Shown piece by piece: positions 2,783 to 43,931 of a stretch of DNA of 46,798 bases. This DNA comes from a virus: IMG/VR virus record IMGVR_UViG_3300005289_000007, positions 1 to 46,798 of that record; one strand, written 5' to 3'. A program made the position numbers and the translations under genes. How positions within the stretch are numbered: the stretch's first letter is position 1; each line of letters opens with the position of its first letter. Below the pieces are notes generated by a model. The model saw nothing but the letters and a program-made list of their open reading frames with translations, made no database searches and was not told where the DNA came from.

Positions 2783-5224
2783 CTATCCGAAGAAGTAGAG
2801 GGACTTTCTAACATCTTCAATAACTAGGCTTCCCTTTGGAGGGACGGGTGGCAGTACTCCACCCATAGCTTCCTGCTGTTTGCGGAAGTCTTCAAGAGGA
2901 TCATTCTTAGTATACATCTGTATGAATGCCTCTCGGAGTACCCTGTGTAACAGAGTAGTGTCGGCAGCATATGTGCCGTAGTCGTCATGGATCAAAGCCA
3001 TGTCAAGGATACCATACTTCTTGGCTAGGCGTACCGTAGCTCTAAGATGATTGCTATCCATGCTGTGGATGAAGTTAGGTGCAATACCCTGTCGCTGTTT
3101 AGCTCCTGCGATCTTGTCAGTGTAATCACCAACACGTATCTGGAACCTACCAGCCAACTGAGTGTCAACCTGTACAGTCTCTACATGCCTACTATGCTGT
3201 ACGGCAATGAAACCATCTGGAGTAGACCAGACAATCGGCTTCTGTATCTTAGTCATAGCCGATGCGCACTGCTGTAGCCAATCCATAGCTACTCGTGCTG
3301 CCACGACAACCTCACCAATAGCCTCCCATAGCAAAGGCTGCAAAGCGCATGCTGCTCGGAAGGTCTGTGTGAAGAACTTCTTATCTGTATCCATTACATC
3401 CATGTAGATGTAGTCTGTACAGGATTGGTTAGTAGCACCATATGGTAGGGTCATGACAGGACGCTTAGACATAGTTCTAGGCATCACTCCCTCCTTGCCG
3501 TAGGTCTGTAGATACCTAGCCCAATCAAGCATCCACGGCTTCTCTGGCTGCGCATATACCTTATTGCTGGCTACCTTGGCAACCAGTGTATAGATGTCGC
3601 TAGGCTTAGCTGATGGCACTAGGTTCGTCGCAGCACCACCAATAGGATCACGAAGCATAGCACTAAAGTTCTGTAATCCGTTACAGGAGCCATCAAGGCC
3701 TACAGGAAGATAACTAACAAAGTCATCTGCTTTATATCCTAACTCTTTCAACTGGTGAAGCTTGGCATACTCAATAAGGAATGCTAGGAATTGGTAGGGC
3801 TTGTCTGCGTCGGCCCATACGGCTCGATTGGATATCGGGTCAAGACCTGCGCTAACAAATTCTGCATGTCTTTGATCGACCCACGCCACACGAGTTGGGT
3901 AATCTTCTTTGTCGAAACCGTAACGATTAGCTCCATGGACTTTGAGCCAGAACTCTCCGTGCGGTCCAAGAGGTTTACCATTAGCAAATCGTAGAAGTCC
4001 TTTTGCGATGTCCGGACCTTGCGGGCTGAAACCAGAAGTCGCTGTATATAGCCTGCCTCGAAAGTCAGCGTACCACACGTACCAGAAGCGAGCATATTGA
4101 CTGTACTCATTTGCCATTCGAATGACCCGAGTGACTTGAAACGACTTGCTAACACGTTCTTTCTCCTTAGTGTGGACCTCCGCTGCTGCGCGCTTCCACT
4201 CCTGAAACTGTATCAATTCTGCTTCGGTGAATTCCTCTTTGTTCTTGTCTGCTAGAGCGAACTCTGATGGCACCAGCTTCTCACTGCCCGGCATACCAAT
4301 GCCAAGGTTCTGTGCCCATACTGTCTTGACGATCTGTAGTACATCACCATTAACTTCCCACGGCGTATGCTGTGCGATGTTAAGGGTGTCCATGATTAAA
4401 CTTAGGTTGGCTTTCTTGAGCAGACGCTTCTGTAGGTGCCCACTACATTTAACCATAGGCGTTGATTGCCTGAGTTGGGGCGTATAGTAACCACCTTGAT
4501 CGAGTTCAGACCAATCGTCGGGTTCAATAATACAGGGGGCACGGTCCGGGAATAGTAGCTGTGCTGCGTCTTCATGTGAGTTTATCCACGCCTGTGCTGT
4601 CTCAGTAGGCTTAAGATACACCTGCTGCTTCTTACCAGCCTTGACGTGCACCTTCTCCAACAAGTCAGAATACTGTAGTACAAGGTCCAGCATACGGCAA
4701 CCGACATCAGCACGTTCCGTCTGTGACCATGCGGGCCAATCATCCCCTTGCTCATTTGCACTATGAGTAAGAACACGATGCATATATCGATAATCTTTAG
4801 TGCCCTTGCGTTTAAAGTCTTGTATGATCGTGTCGTAATACTTTGAATGCATTTCCTGAAAACGGCTAAAGCGGCACTCATCCTCAATCAACCTCCCGAT
4901 ACGAATAGCCACGTCAATCAACTGCTGCTTCTCATTCATAAACGAATTGAATACAGTGCGTAGTGTAATGTACACAGCCTTATCTGCATCAGTGCGGAGT
5001 AGCAGTGCCTTAGCACGACCATGCTGAGTAGCACCTGCCTTGGTCATCATAGAGATAAAGGCATCGATCAAGTGCTGCATGTACTCAGACATCAGGCGGC
5101 GGGAGTAGTCGAGGTCTGAACCTCTGCCATCCTTCTCCGCTCGCCTCTGTCCCTTTAGATAAGTCTCAGCACCACGCGCTAGCATCTTCTGTTCAAGTTC
5201 CAACTGCGCCTCGATAGTGCTCAT
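2783..5224 (-). CDS. T7-type single-subunit DNA-directed RNA polymerase
   Basis: An 813-aa enzyme (T7 gp1 is 883) that transcribes phage genes from its own promoters. The catalytic motifs are visible: DGSCNG with Asp511 (T7 Asp537), KRPVMTLPYG with Lys587 and Tyr595 (T7 Lys631/Tyr639), APNFIHSMDSNHLR, and HDDYGT with the second metal-binding Asp747 (T7 Asp812, where T7 has HDSFGT). The expected promoter-specificity loop lies near residues 670-710. ATG 5224 follows an AAGGGA ribosome site within the end of the endonuclease gene. It sits after the DNA metabolism genes, as in phiKMV-like phages, so it probably depends on read-through from early host-polymerase promoters. Confidence 0.97.
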   Translation of the reverse strand: MSTIEAQLELEQKMLARGAETYLKGQRRAEKDGRGSDLDYSRRLMSEYMQHLIDAFISMMTKAGATQHGRAKALLLRTDADKAVYITLRTVFNSFMNEKQQLIDVAIRIGRLIEDECRFSRFQEMHSKYYDTIIQDFKRKGTKDYRYMHRVLTHSANEQGDDWPAWSQTERADVGCRMLDLVLQYSDLLEKVHVKAGKKQQVYLKPTETAQAWINSHEDAAQLLFPDRAPCIIEPDDWSELDQGGYYTPQLRQSTPMVKCSGHLQKRLLKKANLSLIMDTLNIAQHTPWEVNGDVLQIVKTVWAQNLGIGMPGSEKLVPSEFALADKNKEEFTEAELIQFQEWKRAAAEVHTKEKERVSKSFQVTRVIRMANEYSQYARFWYVWYADFRGRLYTATSGFSPQGPDIAKGLLRFANGKPLGPHGEFWLKVHGANRYGFDKEDYPTRVAWVDQRHAEFVSAGLDPISNRAVWADADKPYQFLAFLIEYAKLHQLKELGYKADDFVSYLPVGLDGSCNGLQNFSAMLRDPIGGAATNLVPSAKPSDIYTLVAKVASNKVYAQPEKPWMLDWARYLQTYGKEGVMPRTMSKRPVMTLPYGATNQSCTDYIYMDVMDTDKKFFTQTFRAACALQPLLWEAIGEVVVAARVAMDWLQQCASAMTKIQKPIVWSTPDGFIAVQHSRHVETVQVDTQLAGRFQIRVGDYTDKIAGAKQRQGIAPNFIHSMDSNHLRATVRLAKKYGILDMALIHDDYGTYAADTTLLHRVLREAFIQMYTKNDPLEDFRKQQEAMGGVLPPVPPKGSLVIEDVRKSLYFFG

Positions 5225-16317: not shown

Positions 16318-17212
16318 GTAAGATACTCCTTATTTGATTGTCCGAATAAAGCTTTGGGTCTTTATCCGATTTGATTAGTGTAACCTTATGTCCCTGCATA
16401 CTCAGGGAATGCGCCAAGCGGCGGGTCGCTTTTCTACCGGCCTTGTCGGGGTCCATCCATAGACCGAAGCGTAAACTAGTAGCTTCAGTCCTGTACCACT
16501 CCACTTGCTGAACTTCTTTACCTGCTCGTAGTTTCGTAAGTAGCTCTGCAATACGTTCCACGTTGACCGCTGTACCGAGTAGGGAACATGATGCGACATG
16601 ACGTCCAACGCGAATTGTCGAGAGTACGTCTTCTGTGAGCACAATATCGAAAAGATCATGCGTTCCCGCAGCTTTAGCGGAAGGAAGCGTAGTGCGGTTA
16701 TCAGAAAAATAGATTGCACGTTCAGGCTCCTTATGTTTAAGTATGTACTTAGGCTTCTGGTGCTTGTCCACGGACCTCGCTAGAAAACCTAATAAGGGGC
16801 CCGATGGATTTGAATGGATTGTATTTGAATACTTCAAAATTGGGATGACAACCCGGTTCAAGCTTTCTGACCACTGGATTGAGTAAGCTGTCCATAACGA
16901 TGCGGTCAAACCTGCGCCCAACAACCATTCCATCGCGCTTGGCTTTGTCGATACCTCCTTCAAATCCGTGGGCAATGATACGTGCTTCGACAGCAGCAAA
17001 GTCTGCGTGGACAATCTGATCTGCTCCAACTCTGCGAGCGTCCTCATGCCATGCGGCGAGAACCTTAGCGGCTGTTGCGGATCGCACCGGAAGCACCATG
17101 CTCGGTATCCTGTTGCATCGTGCGAGACTATGCAGCTTTTGTCCGGACCGCAGCACTCTACTTTCCGTCTTTGGCCGTAGGGTAGACTTTTCGCTAGGCG
17201 CAACCAATCCAT
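16286..17212 (-). CDS. DNA primase (zinc-binding and TOPRIM domains)
   Basis: A 308-aa primase. The N-terminus has a zinc-ribbon-like Cys/His cluster (Cys20, Cys21, Cys27, His31, Cys40, Cys43). The TOPRIM domain shows the acidic residue in VLTEDVLS and the DxD in LWMDPDKAGRK. It makes RNA primers for lagging-strand synthesis with the adjacent helicase. ATG 17212 is supported by AAGGAG ten bases upstream, and an in-frame stop lies three codons before it, so the start cannot be further upstream. The first 464 bases are shared, in another frame, with the kinase-like ORF. Confidence 0.93.
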   Translation of the reverse strand: MDWLRLAKSLPYGQRRKVECCGPDKSCIVSHDATGYRAWCFRCDPQQPLRFSPHGMRTLAELEQIRLSTQTLLLSKHVSLPTDLKEVSTKPSAMEWLLGAGLTASLWTAYSIQWSESLNRVVIPILKYSNTIHSNPSGPLLGFLARSVDKHQKPKYILKHKEPERAIYFSDNRTTLPSAKAAGTHDLFDIVLTEDVLSTIRVGRHVASCSLLGTAVNVERIAELLTKLRAGKEVQQVEWYRTEATSLRFGLWMDPDKAGRKATRRLAHSLSMQGHKVTLIKSDKDPKLYSDNQIRSILLDRHSTVEAP

Positions 17213-18020
17213 GCTTCTCTAGCTCCTTCTTGTGTCCTTTATCCAAGAACTTAAGTGCTTCTTGCTGCCAAGGATGTAGTTTAGCGCCAACAATACTAGC
17301 GAACTCTTTGAACTTAACATCCTCGTACAGCTTATTTATCTGCCCGGCATCCCACTTAACAACATGATCGTAGATAGCTCGACCATACGGCTTTTCTTGC
17401 ATCAGCGTGGTTGAACGCTCAGCGGGGGTATCAACCTGCCTAACAGTAATATCTACTCGCCCACCGGCAGCAGTATACCGCTCTAATAGCTTAGGCACAT
17501 TCACCGCAGTACTAGTGTAAGGATCAGTGAGAACCTTAACTGCCCGGTTATCTGGCCTATGCATATAGTTACCTGCATGCATATCTGTGAAGTTTCCTAG
17601 ATGATTAAGCAAGCAATGTAGCCAAGGACCATCCGAAATGTGCCCTTGCTCGACCAGCCAATTTGCACGTCGCTTTCCATCCCATAAATCACCAACACCC
17701 GGTACAAGTCGCTCTACCTCAGCAATAACAATAGTACCAGCATTCTTCATTGCAAATACACGCATCAGATGCGGGCTCTGGTGACTGTACTCAAGGCAAT
17801 GCATAGCATACGCAATCCAACCATCAGTCAGAACATTGCATACTTTAAACACGGTATCCTTGTTGTAAGGATTTTCCACAACACAACCATAAGACCCATT
17901 ACCCAGTACAGTGTACCCAAACTCATTTGAGAGGTGCTCCCGGATACTATAAATGTCTTGAAGTCGGGAACTCTTGGCAGCTACCGCCAATCTGTTCATG
18001 TACTGCAATGAAGAAGCCAT
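16749..18020 (-). CDS. Protein kinase-like protein whose 3' third overlaps the primase gene
   Basis: A 423-aa ORF. Residues 1-170 show a protein-kinase pattern: glycine loop LGNGSYGCVV (39-48), a candidate ATP-contacting lysine in TVFKV (Lys59), the catalytic-loop pattern DxxxxN as DMHAGN (Asp146, Asn151) and an Asp in LTDPY (166). T7 gp0.7 is an early Ser/Thr kinase, giving a functional precedent but not clear homology. From residue about 270 the frame continues for 153 codons inside the primase gene. This may be true overprinting, or the protein may end earlier in related phages. Kinase activity is an inference. Confidence 0.7.
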   Translation of the reverse strand: MASSLQYMNRLAVAAKSSRLQDIYSIREHLSNEFGYTVLGNGSYGCVVENPYNKDTVFKVCNVLTDGWIAYAMHCLEYSHQSPHLMRVFAMKNAGTIVIAEVERLVPGVGDLWDGKRRANWLVEQGHISDGPWLHCLLNHLGNFTDMHAGNYMHRPDNRAVKVLTDPYTSTAVNVPKLLERYTAAGGRVDITVRQVDTPAERSTTLMQEKPYGRAIYDHVVKWDAGQINKLYEDVKFKEFASIVGAKLHPWQQEALKFLDKGHKKELEKHGLVAPSEKSTLRPKTESRVLRSGQKLHSLARCNRIPSMVLPVRSATAAKVLAAWHEDARRVGADQIVHADFAAVEARIIAHGFEGGIDKAKRDGMVVGRRFDRIVMDSLLNPVVRKLEPGCHPNFEVFKYNPFKSIGPLIRFSSEVRGQAPEA

Positions 18021-19678: not shown

Positions 19679-20110
19679 CTATAGTTCAGTAAGAGCCGTG
19701 TATTGGTTCTTACAGTATGCTTTAATGAATTTATCGATGTTATCTGGAACTGTCTTGTACGTATCCATGTACCTATTAAGGCCATCCACATAGGCATTAA
19801 GAATAATTACATGTTTGGCACTAGACCCCGTAATACCAAATAGTTCGAACCATGCTGTAGCAAGGTAGATATTTGGTGGTCGGGTAGTGTATGTAACTGC
19901 TACAGTCCACAGCGCTAGTACCCAATCGGATACATCTTGGTATTTAGTATTAACAATAGGAGAATAGACACTCATATGAGTACCCGAAGTATACAGGGCA
20001 TGTTCCCTATTCCACCCAATAGTCGTATAAAGATTACGATCTTTCATGTCAGCCAAGAGCAATTGTGCACCATGGCCGAACGTCTCGATATCCTTATTCG
20101 TAATGCGCAT
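19679..20110 (-). CDS. Hypothetical protein (143 aa)
   Basis: A 143-aa protein, start MRITNKDIETFGHGAQLLLADM, preceded by AGGAGA. It is mixed alpha/beta with aromatic-rich patches (WVLALWTVAVTYTTRPPNIYLATAWFELFG). No family is recognised. It lies between a branched stem-loop region and the endolysin, eight bases before the endolysin ribosome site, so it is probably co-transcribed with lysis genes. Confidence 0.75.
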   Translation of the reverse strand: MRITNKDIETFGHGAQLLLADMKDRNLYTTIGWNREHALYTSGTHMSVYSPIVNTKYQDVSDWVLALWTVAVTYTTRPPNIYLATAWFELFGITGSSAKHVIILNAYVDGLNRYMDTYKTVPDNIDKFIKAYCKNQYTALTEL

Positions 20111-20140
20111 TCTACTCTCCTATTGTTAATTTCGACGCAA

Positions 20141-24326: not shown

Positions 24327-24827
24327 TTAGTTCGGCAGAGCGGTCAGGATCGTGGCCTTATGCGCCTTCAGGGCACCAATCAGGGCACTATGATCCTGCT
24401 TAGTCTCCTTCTGATCCTTTTCCAGTTTCTTGATCTGCTGGTCAATGTACGTATCCATGATCAGAGGCTGATAAGGAACGCCCTCATTAGCCTTGAACTT
24501 CCAGAACGGCTTTTCCATAGCATCACCAAGACGCTGAGGCTTAGTAGAGACATAGCACATAGCCTTGCCTTCATACTTCAGCTTGCCGAACGTCTCAAAC
24601 CAGAGAATGAGACTGTTCTTGCGTGTCATGTCTGGCATGGCAGCAAGGAAGTTGTTCACGATACCAATCTGGCCGTGCTTACCGACATGCGCCAGTACAC
24701 TACAAGCCAGAGTATGCGCATCATGCTGAAGCATATTAGCAGCAGCAGCAAGAGTATTAGTAGCTGCCGTGATCGCCTTGGTAGACGTAAGCAGCGTAAC
24801 AGTGTTGGTCTTAGGGCTCTTAGCCAT
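24327..24827 (-). CDS. Hypothetical protein (166 aa)
   Basis: A 166-aa protein starting at ATG 24827 (MAKSPKTNTVTLLTSTKAI) after GGAGA. It is Ala/Thr-rich and helical, with ANMLQHDAHTLACSVLAHVG and a C-terminal charged helix (QQIKKLEKDQKETKQ) that may be a coiled coil. It resembles in outline small phage proteins of unknown function that process into helical bundles. No enzymatic motif is seen. Confidence 0.72.
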   Translation of the reverse strand: MAKSPKTNTVTLLTSTKAITAATNTLAAAANMLQHDAHTLACSVLAHVGKHGQIGIVNNFLAAMPDMTRKNSLILWFETFGKLKYEGKAMCYVSTKPQRLGDAMEKPFWKFKANEGVPYQPLIMDTYIDQQIKKLEKDQKETKQDHSALIGALKAHKATILTALPN

Positions 24828-24845
24828 TATAGTCTCCATGCGTAT

Positions 24846-25178: not shown

Positions 25179-25330
25179 GCTGCACTACTGCTAAACAGTG
25201 CCTTGTAGGCGATAAAGCTAAGCAATGCCCACTTGCCAATGAGATAAGCCGTCATAGCGATAGCCAATCCCGGGCACACAAAGCATGCCAGTACAAAGAC
25301 AACCCAAAATACAGTATGTGTGTTGATCAT
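25160..25330 (-). CDS. Small two-span membrane protein, first early gene (56 aa)
   Basis: A 56-aa ORF starting at ATG 25330 with AAGGA nine bases upstream. Two hydrophobic segments: VFWVVFVLACFVCPGLAIAM and YLIGKWALLSFIAYKALF, then a basic tail (WRVRK). It overlaps the next gene by 19 bases. It is probably the first protein made after the structured leader, in the place where T7-like phages encode host-takeover factors. Too short for routine prediction. Confidence 0.65.
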   Translation of the reverse strand: MINTHTVFWVVFVLACFVCPGLAIAMTAYLIGKWALLSFIAYKALFSSSAAWRVRK

Positions 25331-25345
25331 AGTCTTGATCCTTAT

Positions 25346-25459
25346 CTAGTGATTAATAAGAGGCTAGAAGTAATCGAAACTTCCTACGTAGTTGCACACT
25401 ACGCTGACATTAGTGCATTCATGCCATGCGCTACCAAGTAGCCTCTAACTAATCACTAG
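25346..25459 (-). ncRNA. Cloverleaf-like element closed by a 21-bp stem
   Basis: CTAGTGATTA...AGAGGCTA (25346-25366) pairs with 25439-25459 at 19 of 21 positions. Inside are three hairpins: GAAGT/ACTTC with a 7-base loop (25367-25383), CGTAGT/ACTACG (25387-25403) and an 8-bp arm TAGTGCAT/ATGCGCTA (25411-25433). On the minus strand the first arm reads GAAGT TTCGATT ACTTC, a textbook tRNA T-arm, followed directly by the 7-base strand TAGCCTC that pairs with GAGGCTA as an acceptor stem would. There is no D-arm, so it is not a normal tRNA gene. Confidence 0.6.
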
Positions 25460-25466
25460 CAGGTAC

Positions 25467-26036
25467 GTTATTCCGGCCGAACCCGGACGATAACAACCTC
25501 TGCTAGTCCCGCTTCTAATGCTGTAGCTCTGTCCTATTATTGGCGCTACATACACCGCTTGTCAGTCAGGTGATACTTAAGATACTAGCTGTAAGAGCAA
25601 GTGGCGATCTAGATAAGACTGCGATCGATCCGTGCGTTACGTAGTAAGGTAGGCTGGCCTTTCAAGAGCGCATTAACAGGACATACGCCCTGTCACCTAC
25701 CTAAGCTAGTGGCCTAGGTATTCTTTACTGATTTGCTGTTAGTGCCGCGTCTGTGGCTTCCCACCCGTCTGATGTTATCAGCATGCTGCGCACTAACTCA
25801 GGTCCAAGGCTAATCAATCGCCCTGCCTGTTATTAAGCCTTTTGGTAACTAACCGAGGTAGCTTATCATCCTGTTTTCACCGGCCTTATCAACAGAGTGT
25901 AAATCTGTATCCAAGTCAGTGTTACCACGACTTACCTTTGTGGGTTCTATCCACTAGCTTGCGCTTTCAGGGAGGAAACTCCCTACTGGCTGACCGTTCA
26001 ACGGGAGGCACGAAGCTGTCCCTAGGTCCATCTGGC
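25467..26036 (-). ncRNA. Dense array of nested stem-loops (candidate large structured RNA)
   Basis: No convincing gene is present. Stems found by eye: GTTATTCCGG with CCGGA..ATAAC (25467-25494); GCTAGT/ACTAGC (25502/25584) enclosing TGTAGC/GCTACA; AGGTAGG/CCTACCT (25647/25696) enclosing ACAGG/CCTGT; GTTAGTGC/GCACTAAC (25738/25790) enclosing GTGG-CTTC-CCAC and CTGAT-GTT-ATCAG; AAGGCTAAT with ATTAAGCCTT (25806/25832); ACAGA/TCTGT, AAGTC/GACTT and GTGG/CCAC (25892-25954); AGCTT/AAGCT (25956/26013) enclosing AGGGAG-GAAA-CTCCCT and CCGTTCAACGG. A sigma70-like promoter at 26063-26090 would start a minus-strand transcript just upstream. Strand remains uncertain. Confidence 0.55.
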
Positions 26037-26062
26037 TAACTCGTCGTCAGCGCCATATCCAC

Positions 26063-26090
26063 AACATAAACCAATCCAATATGTAGTCAA
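26063..26090 (-). promoter_or_regulatory. Candidate sigma70 promoter ahead of the structured region
   Basis: Minus strand -35 TTGACT (26085-26090), a 16-base spacer and -10 TATGTT (26063-26068). The -35 matches five of six consensus bases and the -10 four. Transcription would begin near 26056 and run into the stem-loop array and then the early genes. Confidence 0.5.
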
Positions 26091-26129
26091 CTGCTATTTT
26101 GCATTCCGGCCAACTATTTTATAACTGTA

Positions 26130-26520
26130 TGATATCATTGGTATTTATCTGTAGATAGAGCCAAGCCATAGACCGATACCAATGAGCCATAATAGCCTAC
26201 TCATTATAATACACATACAATTAGGAATATAATCATATAGATATCCATACCTATTATTTATGCAGTTCTATCTGTATCTATCCAGTGGCTACCAGTCTTA
26301 TATCTCTGTAGTCATACTGTATCTATCTAGTATGTACTCTCAGTCTTATCTCAGGTTCTATCTCAGTGTATAACTTAGAGGTATCTCAGTCTTATCTATC
26401 GGCTATCATTATCAGTGTATTATCTTCGTATTCATATCATTGGTATGCAGTATCTATCTATTACTATCTATTCCCTACTGTATACTATCAGCCTGCATAT
26501 CTTCGGCGAAACTGATACCA
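26130..26520. repeat. AT-rich TATC-repeat region
   Basis: About 390 bases of degenerate repeats on the plus strand built from TATCTATC, TGTATCTATC and CAGTCTTATCT. CAGTCTTA occurs at 26293, 26341 and 26387, spaced 46-48 bases. No ORF of interest is seen. AT-rich, iteron-like DNA next to the early promoters could be a replication origin or part of the terminal repeat. It separates the two sigma70-like promoters. Confidence 0.55.
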
Positions 26521-26541
26521 GAACATAGATGCTGCTTTCTT

Positions 26542-26553
26542 CCACTTATGAAG
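26542..26553 (-). promoter_or_regulatory. Phage-type promoter in the early leader region
   Basis: Minus strand CTTCATAAGTGG followed by AAGAAAGC and, 18 bases after the motif's GGAA, by CTGGTATCAGTTT at the same spacing as the copy at 8016. It lies far (1.2 kb) from the first gene. In T7, phage promoters near the left end also serve replication initiation. Confidence 0.75.
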
Positions 26554-26794
26554 GAAGGACATATTAGGAATACATTCATATAAACACAGTGATTGTACCA
26601 GATCACATATAATGAATGATACAGATATCCAGACGAACGATTGTCTATTTACAACTCAGTTATAACCAGATATGAATACAGATAAGCAAATCGTAGTGCT
26701 ATGGTCGGCCTACTAAATTGAGTAAGCAGCAGGGCCTACGGGGGACTTGGGCCGCAGCGTGGTGTTAGATACCCGCACGAAAAATTGTATCATT

Positions 26795-26823
26795 TTTATA
26801 GACCTGACCTACAGACGAGTTAA
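26795..26823 (-). promoter_or_regulatory. Candidate sigma70 early promoter
   Basis: Minus strand -35 TTAACT (26818-26823), 17-base spacer, -10 TATAAA (26795-26800). An extended -10 form TGATACAAT lies just downstream (26785-26793). Two similar TGGTACAAT strings occur at 26592-26600 and 26942-26950. A cluster of host promoters here would fit the early start of a T7-like genome. The stretch 26560-26790 otherwise holds nothing I can name. Confidence 0.45.
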
Positions 26824-41477: not shown

Positions 41478-43931
41478 TTAACTTCCTGTCTTGAGACGTC
41501 TACCGCGTTTGTTGTACTGACCTATCCATTCAATGTCTAGAATAGTCATTGGATAGAAGCTGTCCGTGAAGTATTCCGTTTCCGCCTCATCATTCTTATG
41601 ACGAAATGGAAGATAGAACTTACCTGAATATATAGCAGGTACACCCACGACGTTATCAATATCCCCAACCACACGTCCTTGGAATTTAACAACCGTACCT
41701 TGATCCCATTTACTATAGGATCGTCCATTAATGTCACCTGTCTTATCTATAGAGGCGATAAAGCCGGTGATCCTGTGCACACCAGTGCCTACTGCGACGC
41801 CATCGGCATCTTTCACAATAGGTATAGTAGGCACGTATTGGCTCAGGTATTCGATACCGACTATGATATCGCCACCTTGCATATCTTCTTTCAGTGTCAC
41901 TACCCAAGCATTCAGATCATCGTCATACACAATAGTATCAATGATGGCAGCCATACCCGGATTAGGGCAGTCTGTACTTTGAACTACTCGTAGCTGCTGA
42001 TCGTTAAGCCAATCGAAGGGTAGCGTAAATGCTCTGTTACAATTCAATACATCGAAGCGAGCATCCAGAAAGATCGGGAACTCCATACCAAGACTGTCTT
42101 CCACGTCCATAGGCATACGGTACAGGATCAACTCGGACCCGTCCTGCACTACTAGATAGAATACGTCTCGATCGAAGAATGTGTACAGTATCTCATTAGA
42201 GAACAGCCACTTGCTCCATGCCGACTGCACCTTCTCAGTATCAGACCAGATGTACTGGTATGTGTAGAGATTGGTGCGATCCTCATCTGTACTGCACAGC
42301 AAGATATCATAGTTAGAAGCAGTAGACATCTGCGTAACAGTGCCCTTGATATACTTCTTTATATGCTGTGTAATAGGTCGAGTATCATTAATATCCGTAC
42401 CACCTTCTGTGTAGAACTCGCGTATACCAGAGAACCGACCATAGGCCATACTGAAGAATACGTTTCGTCCTGCCGGGGCTGGTCGGGCAACTAGGGAGGC
42501 TTCGAATGCTGTAGTCAACACCATGGCCGCGTTAGCTGGCGTAAGGGCGGTACGTCCAAAGATAATGAACTGCCCGCGTTCCGCAAAGATAACTAGGTCA
42601 CGATTATGCGGAATAGCATATCGCATCTTACTAGTCTGCACAGCGTTGGAACTAATATCGATAGGATCGCTATCTACTACTGCACTGACACTGCCCATCC
42701 AGAAATCATCTTGCTTATTCGTCCTAGACATAATGGTATTGCTACCTGCTAAGAACACAAGTCTGTTCTGCATAGTGCTGACGTCATTGATCGTGTTACC
42801 TACAAAGCTAGGATCAGGATTAGATACTCCTGTACCCACCTGCCGAGCTTTCCATACACCCCTGCGGAATAGGAAGTCATCAGTATCTGGCCGGTACTCT
42901 AGCACATGCGGCATAGTAGCCTGATTGAATTGATACGTAATACTAGGAGCTACGCACTCCTGCCAGTAGCCGGGATTACCAAAGCCAGCACCCATTGCTA
43001 CAGTACCTGCGGAACTCTCCACAATGAACTGTAGGAACAAGTCTTCCTCTGGATCGGTTTCAGTAGCCACTCGGGCCACGTATCCCTGCGGTGCCCAACG
43101 AGGCAAGTCACTAGTATCTGGAACAGTTTCAGTCATAGACTTCATGTTCACATTACCATTGTCATCGGATACGGAGAGCAGGAACACTGCACCAGAGTTT
43201 CTCTTGATATGGATAATGTCCTTAGACCTAGTGACAGTCCAGTTAGCGCCAGCTAGTGCGCCAGTACCGAAGTAATCTCCTGCCGTGTCTTCAACGAAGT
43301 TAGGCGGGAACGGGTCACTGTCAGGATGTACCAGCAACCAAGCCAGCACTTCAGCAATATACGTAGTAGTAATGTATTGGCTCTCGTCGGGTGCAGAACC
43401 GTCAGCTACTCGCATAGAGGCGATTTCTGTGCCATCCATGCTGATAGAGTAGCGGCGACCATAGGCACCACCAAGTATCTGAATAATGCCCTGTGGGCGC
43501 GATCCTGTACCTTTGTTCGTGTAGAAACTAGTCGTGGTATCCATAGCCACAGTACGCAACTGATTAGCTACAATGATCTCATTCTCATGAGTAGTAGCTG
43601 CAAAGGTGCCACTGGTAACTAGATACGCAGCAGCATCTGGCTCGATAGTAAGGTCTTGCAACTCACCGTTAGTATTGTGAATAAACAGACTGTTATCTCG
43701 AAAGGATGCTACGTACTTGTTTCCATTCTGAACTTCGAAATCGTACCAGTTACGTATGCTGGTAGAGGAACCGAGACTACCTACTAGATCAGTAGGCGGT
43801 CTACGGGTTAGTCCTGTAACAGGATCAGCGCTCATGTTTAACTGAGCAGTAGATTGTCCCGGCAGCCTATCTCTAGGGGGCTGCTGTGAGACACCCTGCA
43901 AGAGTGATCTTAAACTACCGTCTACTTTCAT
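41478..43931 (-). CDS. Tail tubular protein B (nozzle, gp12-like)
   Basis: An 817-aa protein equal in place and close in length to T7 gp12 (794 aa). The N-terminus has the family mark VSQQPPRDRLPGQ (about 14-26) followed by DPVTGLTRRPPTDLVG. It forms the nozzle of the short tail, to which the gp11-like gatekeeper and tailspikes attach. The gene begins directly at the stop of tail tubular A. Confidence 0.93.
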   Translation of the reverse strand: MKVDGSLRSLLQGVSQQPPRDRLPGQSTAQLNMSADPVTGLTRRPPTDLVGSLGSSTSIRNWYDFEVQNGNKYVASFRDNSLFIHNTNGELQDLTIEPDAAAYLVTSGTFAATTHENEIIVANQLRTVAMDTTTSFYTNKGTGSRPQGIIQILGGAYGRRYSISMDGTEIASMRVADGSAPDESQYITTTYIAEVLAWLLVHPDSDPFPPNFVEDTAGDYFGTGALAGANWTVTRSKDIIHIKRNSGAVFLLSVSDDNGNVNMKSMTETVPDTSDLPRWAPQGYVARVATETDPEEDLFLQFIVESSAGTVAMGAGFGNPGYWQECVAPSITYQFNQATMPHVLEYRPDTDDFLFRRGVWKARQVGTGVSNPDPSFVGNTINDVSTMQNRLVFLAGSNTIMSRTNKQDDFWMGSVSAVVDSDPIDISSNAVQTSKMRYAIPHNRDLVIFAERGQFIIFGRTALTPANAAMVLTTAFEASLVARPAPAGRNVFFSMAYGRFSGIREFYTEGGTDINDTRPITQHIKKYIKGTVTQMSTASNYDILLCSTDEDRTNLYTYQYIWSDTEKVQSAWSKWLFSNEILYTFFDRDVFYLVVQDGSELILYRMPMDVEDSLGMEFPIFLDARFDVLNCNRAFTLPFDWLNDQQLRVVQSTDCPNPGMAAIIDTIVYDDDLNAWVVTLKEDMQGGDIIVGIEYLSQYVPTIPIVKDADGVAVGTGVHRITGFIASIDKTGDINGRSYSKWDQGTVVKFQGRVVGDIDNVVGVPAIYSGKFYLPFRHKNDEAETEYFTDSFYPMTILDIEWIGQYNKRGRRLKTGS

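Follow-up and report, generated by a model that had tools for sequence, protein, structure and literature searches.

The early leader of phage T7 is the closest precedent for the element described here. In the T7 record gene 0.3 starts at 925 and promoters A1-A3 lie at 498-750; RNase III site R0.3, which the record does not annotate, is located upstream of gene 0.3. In T7 RNase III sites an irregularity near the centre interrupts a duplex of about two helical turns. The T7 leader (498-924) folds best on the coding strand, the only one on which it beats its shuffles (z -3.69, compared with -0.55 for the antisense strand). It also holds a boxA-like sequence, CGCTCTTTAACA. As in T7, the phages considered here belong to the Autographiviridae and have a non-coding stretch running from the terminal repeat to the first early gene, with a stem close to that gene both in the window and in its relatives. 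However, the T7 leader measures ~430 nt from A1, whereas those found here are ~600-900 nt long, and their interrupted stem is longer and closes a branched domain in many members. Another phage early-leader RNA which acts through its structure is put of phage HK022, but put elements are short hairpin pairs, whereas the present block extends over several hundred nt.

GOLLD, ROOL, and OLE are large, multi-branched, non-coding RNAs, of which GOLLD and ROOL are known from phages or mobile elements (PMC12286853). The block resembles them in size and in its multi-branched fold, here a predicted one, but differs in matching none of their covariance models, in its genomic position, and in having no core shared between clades. 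The more distant cousin Alteromonas phage H4/4 (Foturvirus) has related core genes (PMC5658483) and likewise a direct terminal repeat, of 217 bp. Its first gene starts at 344, which leaves no room for a leader. Therefore the leader is a feature of a sub-clade, and the early leader class of this sub-clade is a class defined in this analysis.

The window, which is the whole stretch of DNA analysed, is the 46,798-base virus record IMGVR_UViG_3300005289_000007. It contains an Autographiviridae phage with every major gene on the minus strand, including those for a single-subunit RNA polymerase, DNA polymerase, terminase, and tail proteins. Based on terminase and DNA polymerase, the closest named phages have ~55-68% protein identity to the window. 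They comprise the Rhizobium phages Cuernavacavirus, Palo, Paso, X3_9, and Y48, Agrobacterium phages Atu_ph02/03 and Alfirin, Stappia phage SI01, Paracoccus phages, and a phage deposited under the name Nostoc phage NMeng1. The features of the window, in minus-strand order, are as follows.

26731-26798, minus strand: conserved genome-terminus motif, with a profile match in ~60 relatives
26060-26600, minus strand: AT-rich zone containing GATAGATA-type repeats; relatives have it at the same position
26063-26090, minus strand: promoter-like TTGACT-16-TATGTT, at chance level and not conserved in position in relatives
25346-26036, minus strand: putative structured non-coding early leader, no ORF of at least 40 aa, fold z -4.1, position shared with relatives
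25473-25883, minus strand: central multi-branched domain predicted from the single sequence, pair probability 0.80-0.91
25439-25459, minus strand: long closing stem, 5' arm CTAGTGATTAGTTAGAGGCTA, pair probability 0.99
25366-25433, minus strand: three hairpins within the long stem (25411-25433, 25386-25404, and 25366-25384; pair probabilities 0.69, 0.89, and 0.93)
25346-25366, minus strand: long closing stem, 3' arm TAGCCTCTTATTAATCACTAG, ending 16 nt short of the first gene's start codon
25160-25330, minus strand: first early gene, 56 aa, a hydrophobic membrane-like protein, with no PHROG match

The order of terminus motif, AT-rich zone, non-coding block, and first early gene (25330) recurs in almost every relative with a readable region, and a non-coding block is found at the same position in ~44 related phage genomes. 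The terminus motif is ~60 bp long, lies after the late genes, and is kept in ~60 related loci; it is probably the terminase recognition site. In Paso and Palo the terminal repeat predicted by PhageTerm starts at position 30 of this motif. By analogy, the genome end of the window, where its direct terminal repeat would begin, is placed near 26769. The AT-rich zone is purine-biased and is a candidate location of early promoters or of an origin. One leader carrier, Rhizobium phage RHph_Y48, has an integrase gene and annotated attL/attR sites (2962-4280 and 42877-42888). In GenBank records of the relatives the leader region is either empty or filled with scattered hypothetical ORFs.

Evidence that this region acts as RNA comes from the relatives. 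Three independent sets of leaders could be aligned well: Cuernavacavirus, the pair L053/L054, and Palo with L045. The alignment folds gave coding-strand z-scores of -16.2 for Cuernavacavirus, -11.8 for L053/L054, and -9.7 for Palo/L045; the antisense z-scores, in the same order, were -8.7, -5.7, and -4.6, so that the fold was about twofold stronger on the coding strand in all three sets (as elsewhere in this analysis, most z-scores come from tens of shuffles and several thresholds were set while exploring). Controls were made by shuffling columns within 150-column bins and identity patterns. Against this expectation, two-sided pairs were in excess in each set, with 36 found and 13.1 expected in Cuernavacavirus, 21 and 4.9 in L053/L054, and 17 and 8.6 in Palo/L045. 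In seven control alignments of early genes, terminase, and the terminus region from the same phages, coding-strand fold z-scores ranged from +0.5 to -6.3, and the excess of two-sided pairs was not significant (z 0.07 to 2.05). One of the leader stems is UCCUUCC/GGAAGGG in one phage, UCCAAUA/UAUUGGG in another, and UCCAGCU/GGCUGGA in a third. The compensatory changes are distributed along the leader and extend beyond the last stem. When structures were predicted from single sequences, 57% of double changes stayed paired, compared with 36% in slid controls, and in the best-aligned pairs pairing was kept at 39 of 43 double changes (L053/L054) and 32 of 39 (Palo/L045). Moreover, on four of five measures none of 500 shuffles reached the score of a well-conserved 130-nt domain of Cuernavacavirus.

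The strand had been left unsettled by the earlier note, and both the fold asymmetry and the base-pair content of the relatives now assign it to minus, the coding strand. Among helices chosen by a strand-neutral score, G.U pairs outnumber A.C pairs (226 and 179, p 0.022; shuffled, 646 and 668). Together, covariation, strand asymmetry, and G.U excess lead to the conclusion that the relatives carry a conserved structured RNA at this position, on the coding strand. Inverted repeats working at the DNA level, for instance in a replication origin or for packaging, would suit a block situated near the genome terminus and near an AT-rich zone of repeats. Hairpins in DNA should favour neither strand, and thus the coding-strand advantage in all three testable sets, with its G.U excess, makes this explanation very improbable.

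In the window itself, the block was confirmed to be gene-free, as had been claimed, with no minus-strand ORF of at least 40 aa and a longest open stretch of 38 codons. It was further said to be packed with pairing over nearly its whole length. Two runs against shuffles gave z-scores of -4.4 and -4.1 on the minus strand and -3.95 and -2.9 on the plus strand, and thus the block does beat shuffles; the extent of its pairing, by contrast, is unremarkable beside 730-nt pieces of the same phage genome, which on the coding strand have a mean z of -2.1 (sd 1.6). A whole-block z of about -4 is at the better end of the range of these pieces. Since they already average -2.1, single-sequence fold energy is weak evidence and was dropped as proof. 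Local 150-nt fold scores are strong only over 25351-25500. The central domain is predicted to be closed by two long-range helices, 25883-25876/25481-25473 and 25873-25844/25510-25484. The leader may start anywhere from ~26060 to 26036.

The strongest feature of the window block is the stem next to the first gene. In line with the three-hairpin junctions of the earlier note, its 21-nt arms (25346-25366 and 25439-25459) are 90% complementary and close three hairpins, one of which has a GAAA-containing loop when read on the plus strand. The 21 positions include one mismatch and one G.U pair. Of 3000 dinucleotide shuffles of the window leader, 2 yielded a stem this good; in the whole genome, only one stem with arms at least 25 nt apart ranks higher. 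An ordinary intergenic spacer with chance inverted repeats would account for a whole-block fold energy within the range of own-genome pieces. This is hardly credible given the rarity of the stem among shuffles and the presence of long stems in most related leaders (below), and for the relatives a chance spacer is already refuted by covariation with clean coding controls.

Long stems were sought in 44 leaders by scoring, over the 800 nt that precede the first gene, the best stem spanning at most 200 nt. In 36 of them a long stem scored above the 95% level of shuffles, and the mean stem score was 40.6 in leaders, 25.6 in shuffles, and 27.3 in 170 other genome pieces. In most of the relatives, 8-60 nt separate the end of the 3' arm from the start codon; the distance is greater in several others (L044, L048, L063, and L064), where the first gene was probably called too late. 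A set of 25 representative stems has a median length of 25 positions or bp, and in 20 of them a mismatch occurs 9-14 bp from the outer end, although central mismatches are produced in part by the stem-picking method itself. Only one of the 25 is followed by a T run, and therefore the long stems are not intrinsic terminators. No T run follows the window stem either, where ATAAGGATCAAG stands instead. The spacing of two mismatches, seen in several clades, is not clearly above its null, as 30% of multi-mismatch null stems show it too, and from a signature of RNase III it was demoted to a lead.

The window block gave no blastn similarity to any relative. Leader sequence diverges fast, so that blastn connects near relatives only, and IMG/VR searches with terminase or polymerase recovered no close relatives of the window block, nor did a search with the early gene at 24327-24839 find any relative. 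As no relative can be aligned with the window block, its assignment to the class is based on location and architecture: a non-coding block lies between the AT-rich zone and the first early gene, and a long interrupted stem lies within ~150 nt upstream of that gene. From this and from analogy with the covarying relatives, we infer that the window block is the same structured RNA as theirs. Even among the relatives a single fold could not be traced. A covariance model of one Cuernavacavirus domain, run over 44 sources, matched only within Cuernavacavirus, and a candidate cross-clade sequence motif, GGTAACACT, was dropped because it was not clearly above shuffles. The clades have position and style in common and no provable common fold. 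As the domain model does not cross genera, the element is best described as a positional class of structured early leaders and not as one proven RNA family.

The Rfam search proposed in the earlier note matched no family, including GOLLD, ROOL, and OLE. With the Rfam 15 covariance models there was no match at gathering score in the window or at 13 relative loci, and for 25300-26810 none came up even with E relaxed to 10. No description of the element came out of the literature searches. The suggestion of an undescribed structured RNA of T7-like phages has gained support from covariation in the relatives and from this absence of Rfam matches. T7-like phages are among the best-studied viruses, yet annotations are silent on the folded RNA of this sub-clade.

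A large ornate RNA in the manner of GOLLD, ROOL, or OLE, encoded at the early end and acting in trans, for example in host takeover or anti-defence, would match the size, the multi-branched predicted fold, and the rapid turnover of sequence under a kept structure. To our knowledge, the known ornate RNAs are recognisable across hosts; the lack of a cross-clade sequence core here, unlike in those RNAs, and of any Rfam match makes such an RNA quite unlikely. A broader proposal is that these leaders form an undescribed class of large early RNA, selected for form and position while its sequence is turned over almost entirely from genus to genus, which would be cut free and exert a trans effect on the host during the opening minutes of infection. 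This is put forward tentatively, at a probability well short of even. Under this proposal the members would be dozens of Autographiviridae of Alphaproteobacteria together with related metagenomic phages. The sub-clade spends ~1.5% of its genome, within the first DNA to enter the cell, on folded RNA. Cultured phages of the sub-clade infect Rhizobium, Agrobacterium, Paracoccus, and Stappia, and thus a role in takeover, mRNA processing, or defence evasion is directly testable.

The proteins encoded by the first gene fall in many unrelated clusters that differ between clades, while the leader persists. The leader is thus not tied to one gene; it would serve the early operon or act as a separate RNA, and a switch for a single gene is unlikely. 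Such service could be rendered in cis by a leader which is never released. Like HK022 put RNA, it would act on the transcribing polymerase, through antitermination or pausing, or it would protect or regulate early mRNA. A cis role agrees with the coding-strand structure, with the variable first gene, and with a block that keeps its place immediately upstream of the early operon in the examined relatives that have the terminus motif. Such a role is nevertheless judged less likely than release of the leader: the leader is far longer than known put elements, such a role does not require a long stem near the start codon, and a boxA-like sequence is absent from the leaders except in one phage. BoxA-type antitermination was dropped for this last reason. 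A promoter ahead of the block, also proposed in the earlier note, did not hold up. The sigma70-like site is present (minus strand, 26090-26063), but promoter-like sites here occur at the level of shuffled sequence, and over the 44 leaders the top promoter score was 14.65 sense, 14.82 antisense, and 14.48 shuffled. The promoter was dropped as being at chance level in both.

The favoured reading, to which we give about an even chance, is that of an early leader RNA whose final stem would be cut by an RNase III-type nuclease, releasing the leader from the early mRNA. Soon after the first DNA enters the cell, host RNA polymerase would make the block, on the minus strand, as the 5' leader of the early transcript. 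The leader would fold into several domains over roughly 600-700 nt, and a ~20-25 bp stem with a central mismatch, directly ahead of the first early gene, would close the last of them. This stem may then be cut, as at T7 R0.3, by RNase III or another nuclease specific for double strands, yielding a separate stable leader RNA and an early mRNA with a defined 5' end. Processing at the stem is favoured because the stem geometry resembles that of T7 RNase III sites, with its median of 25 bp and its mismatch at 9-14 in 20 of 25 stems, the spacing of mismatches being not clearly beyond its null; cutting by RNase III is a candidate step, by analogy only. For the window leader, transcription, cutting, and a role as released RNA are likewise inferred.

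Several further observations concern the same genomes. At 16749-18020 of the window (minus strand) there is a weak match to PHROG 15752, the T7-type protein kinase modulating RNase III and RNase E, which bears on the RNase III hypothesis. A second RNase III-like stem per genome was considered as support and dropped. In phage RHph_TM33 a perfect 24-bp stem at 3487-3588 closes a further hairpin and is followed by T6; owing to this T run it is a terminator and gives no support to RNase III cutting. This unusually long terminator is located downstream of the gene at 2935-3417, which is SSB-like by eye. The corresponding window stem, at 19949-20130 (minus strand), lies across an ORF start. With 20 perfect pairs it is the best stem of the genome among those with arms at least 25 nt apart, and it pairs the Shine-Dalgarno and start region of ORF 20110-19679 with sequence ~140 nt inside the ORF, which suggests possible translational control of that ORF.
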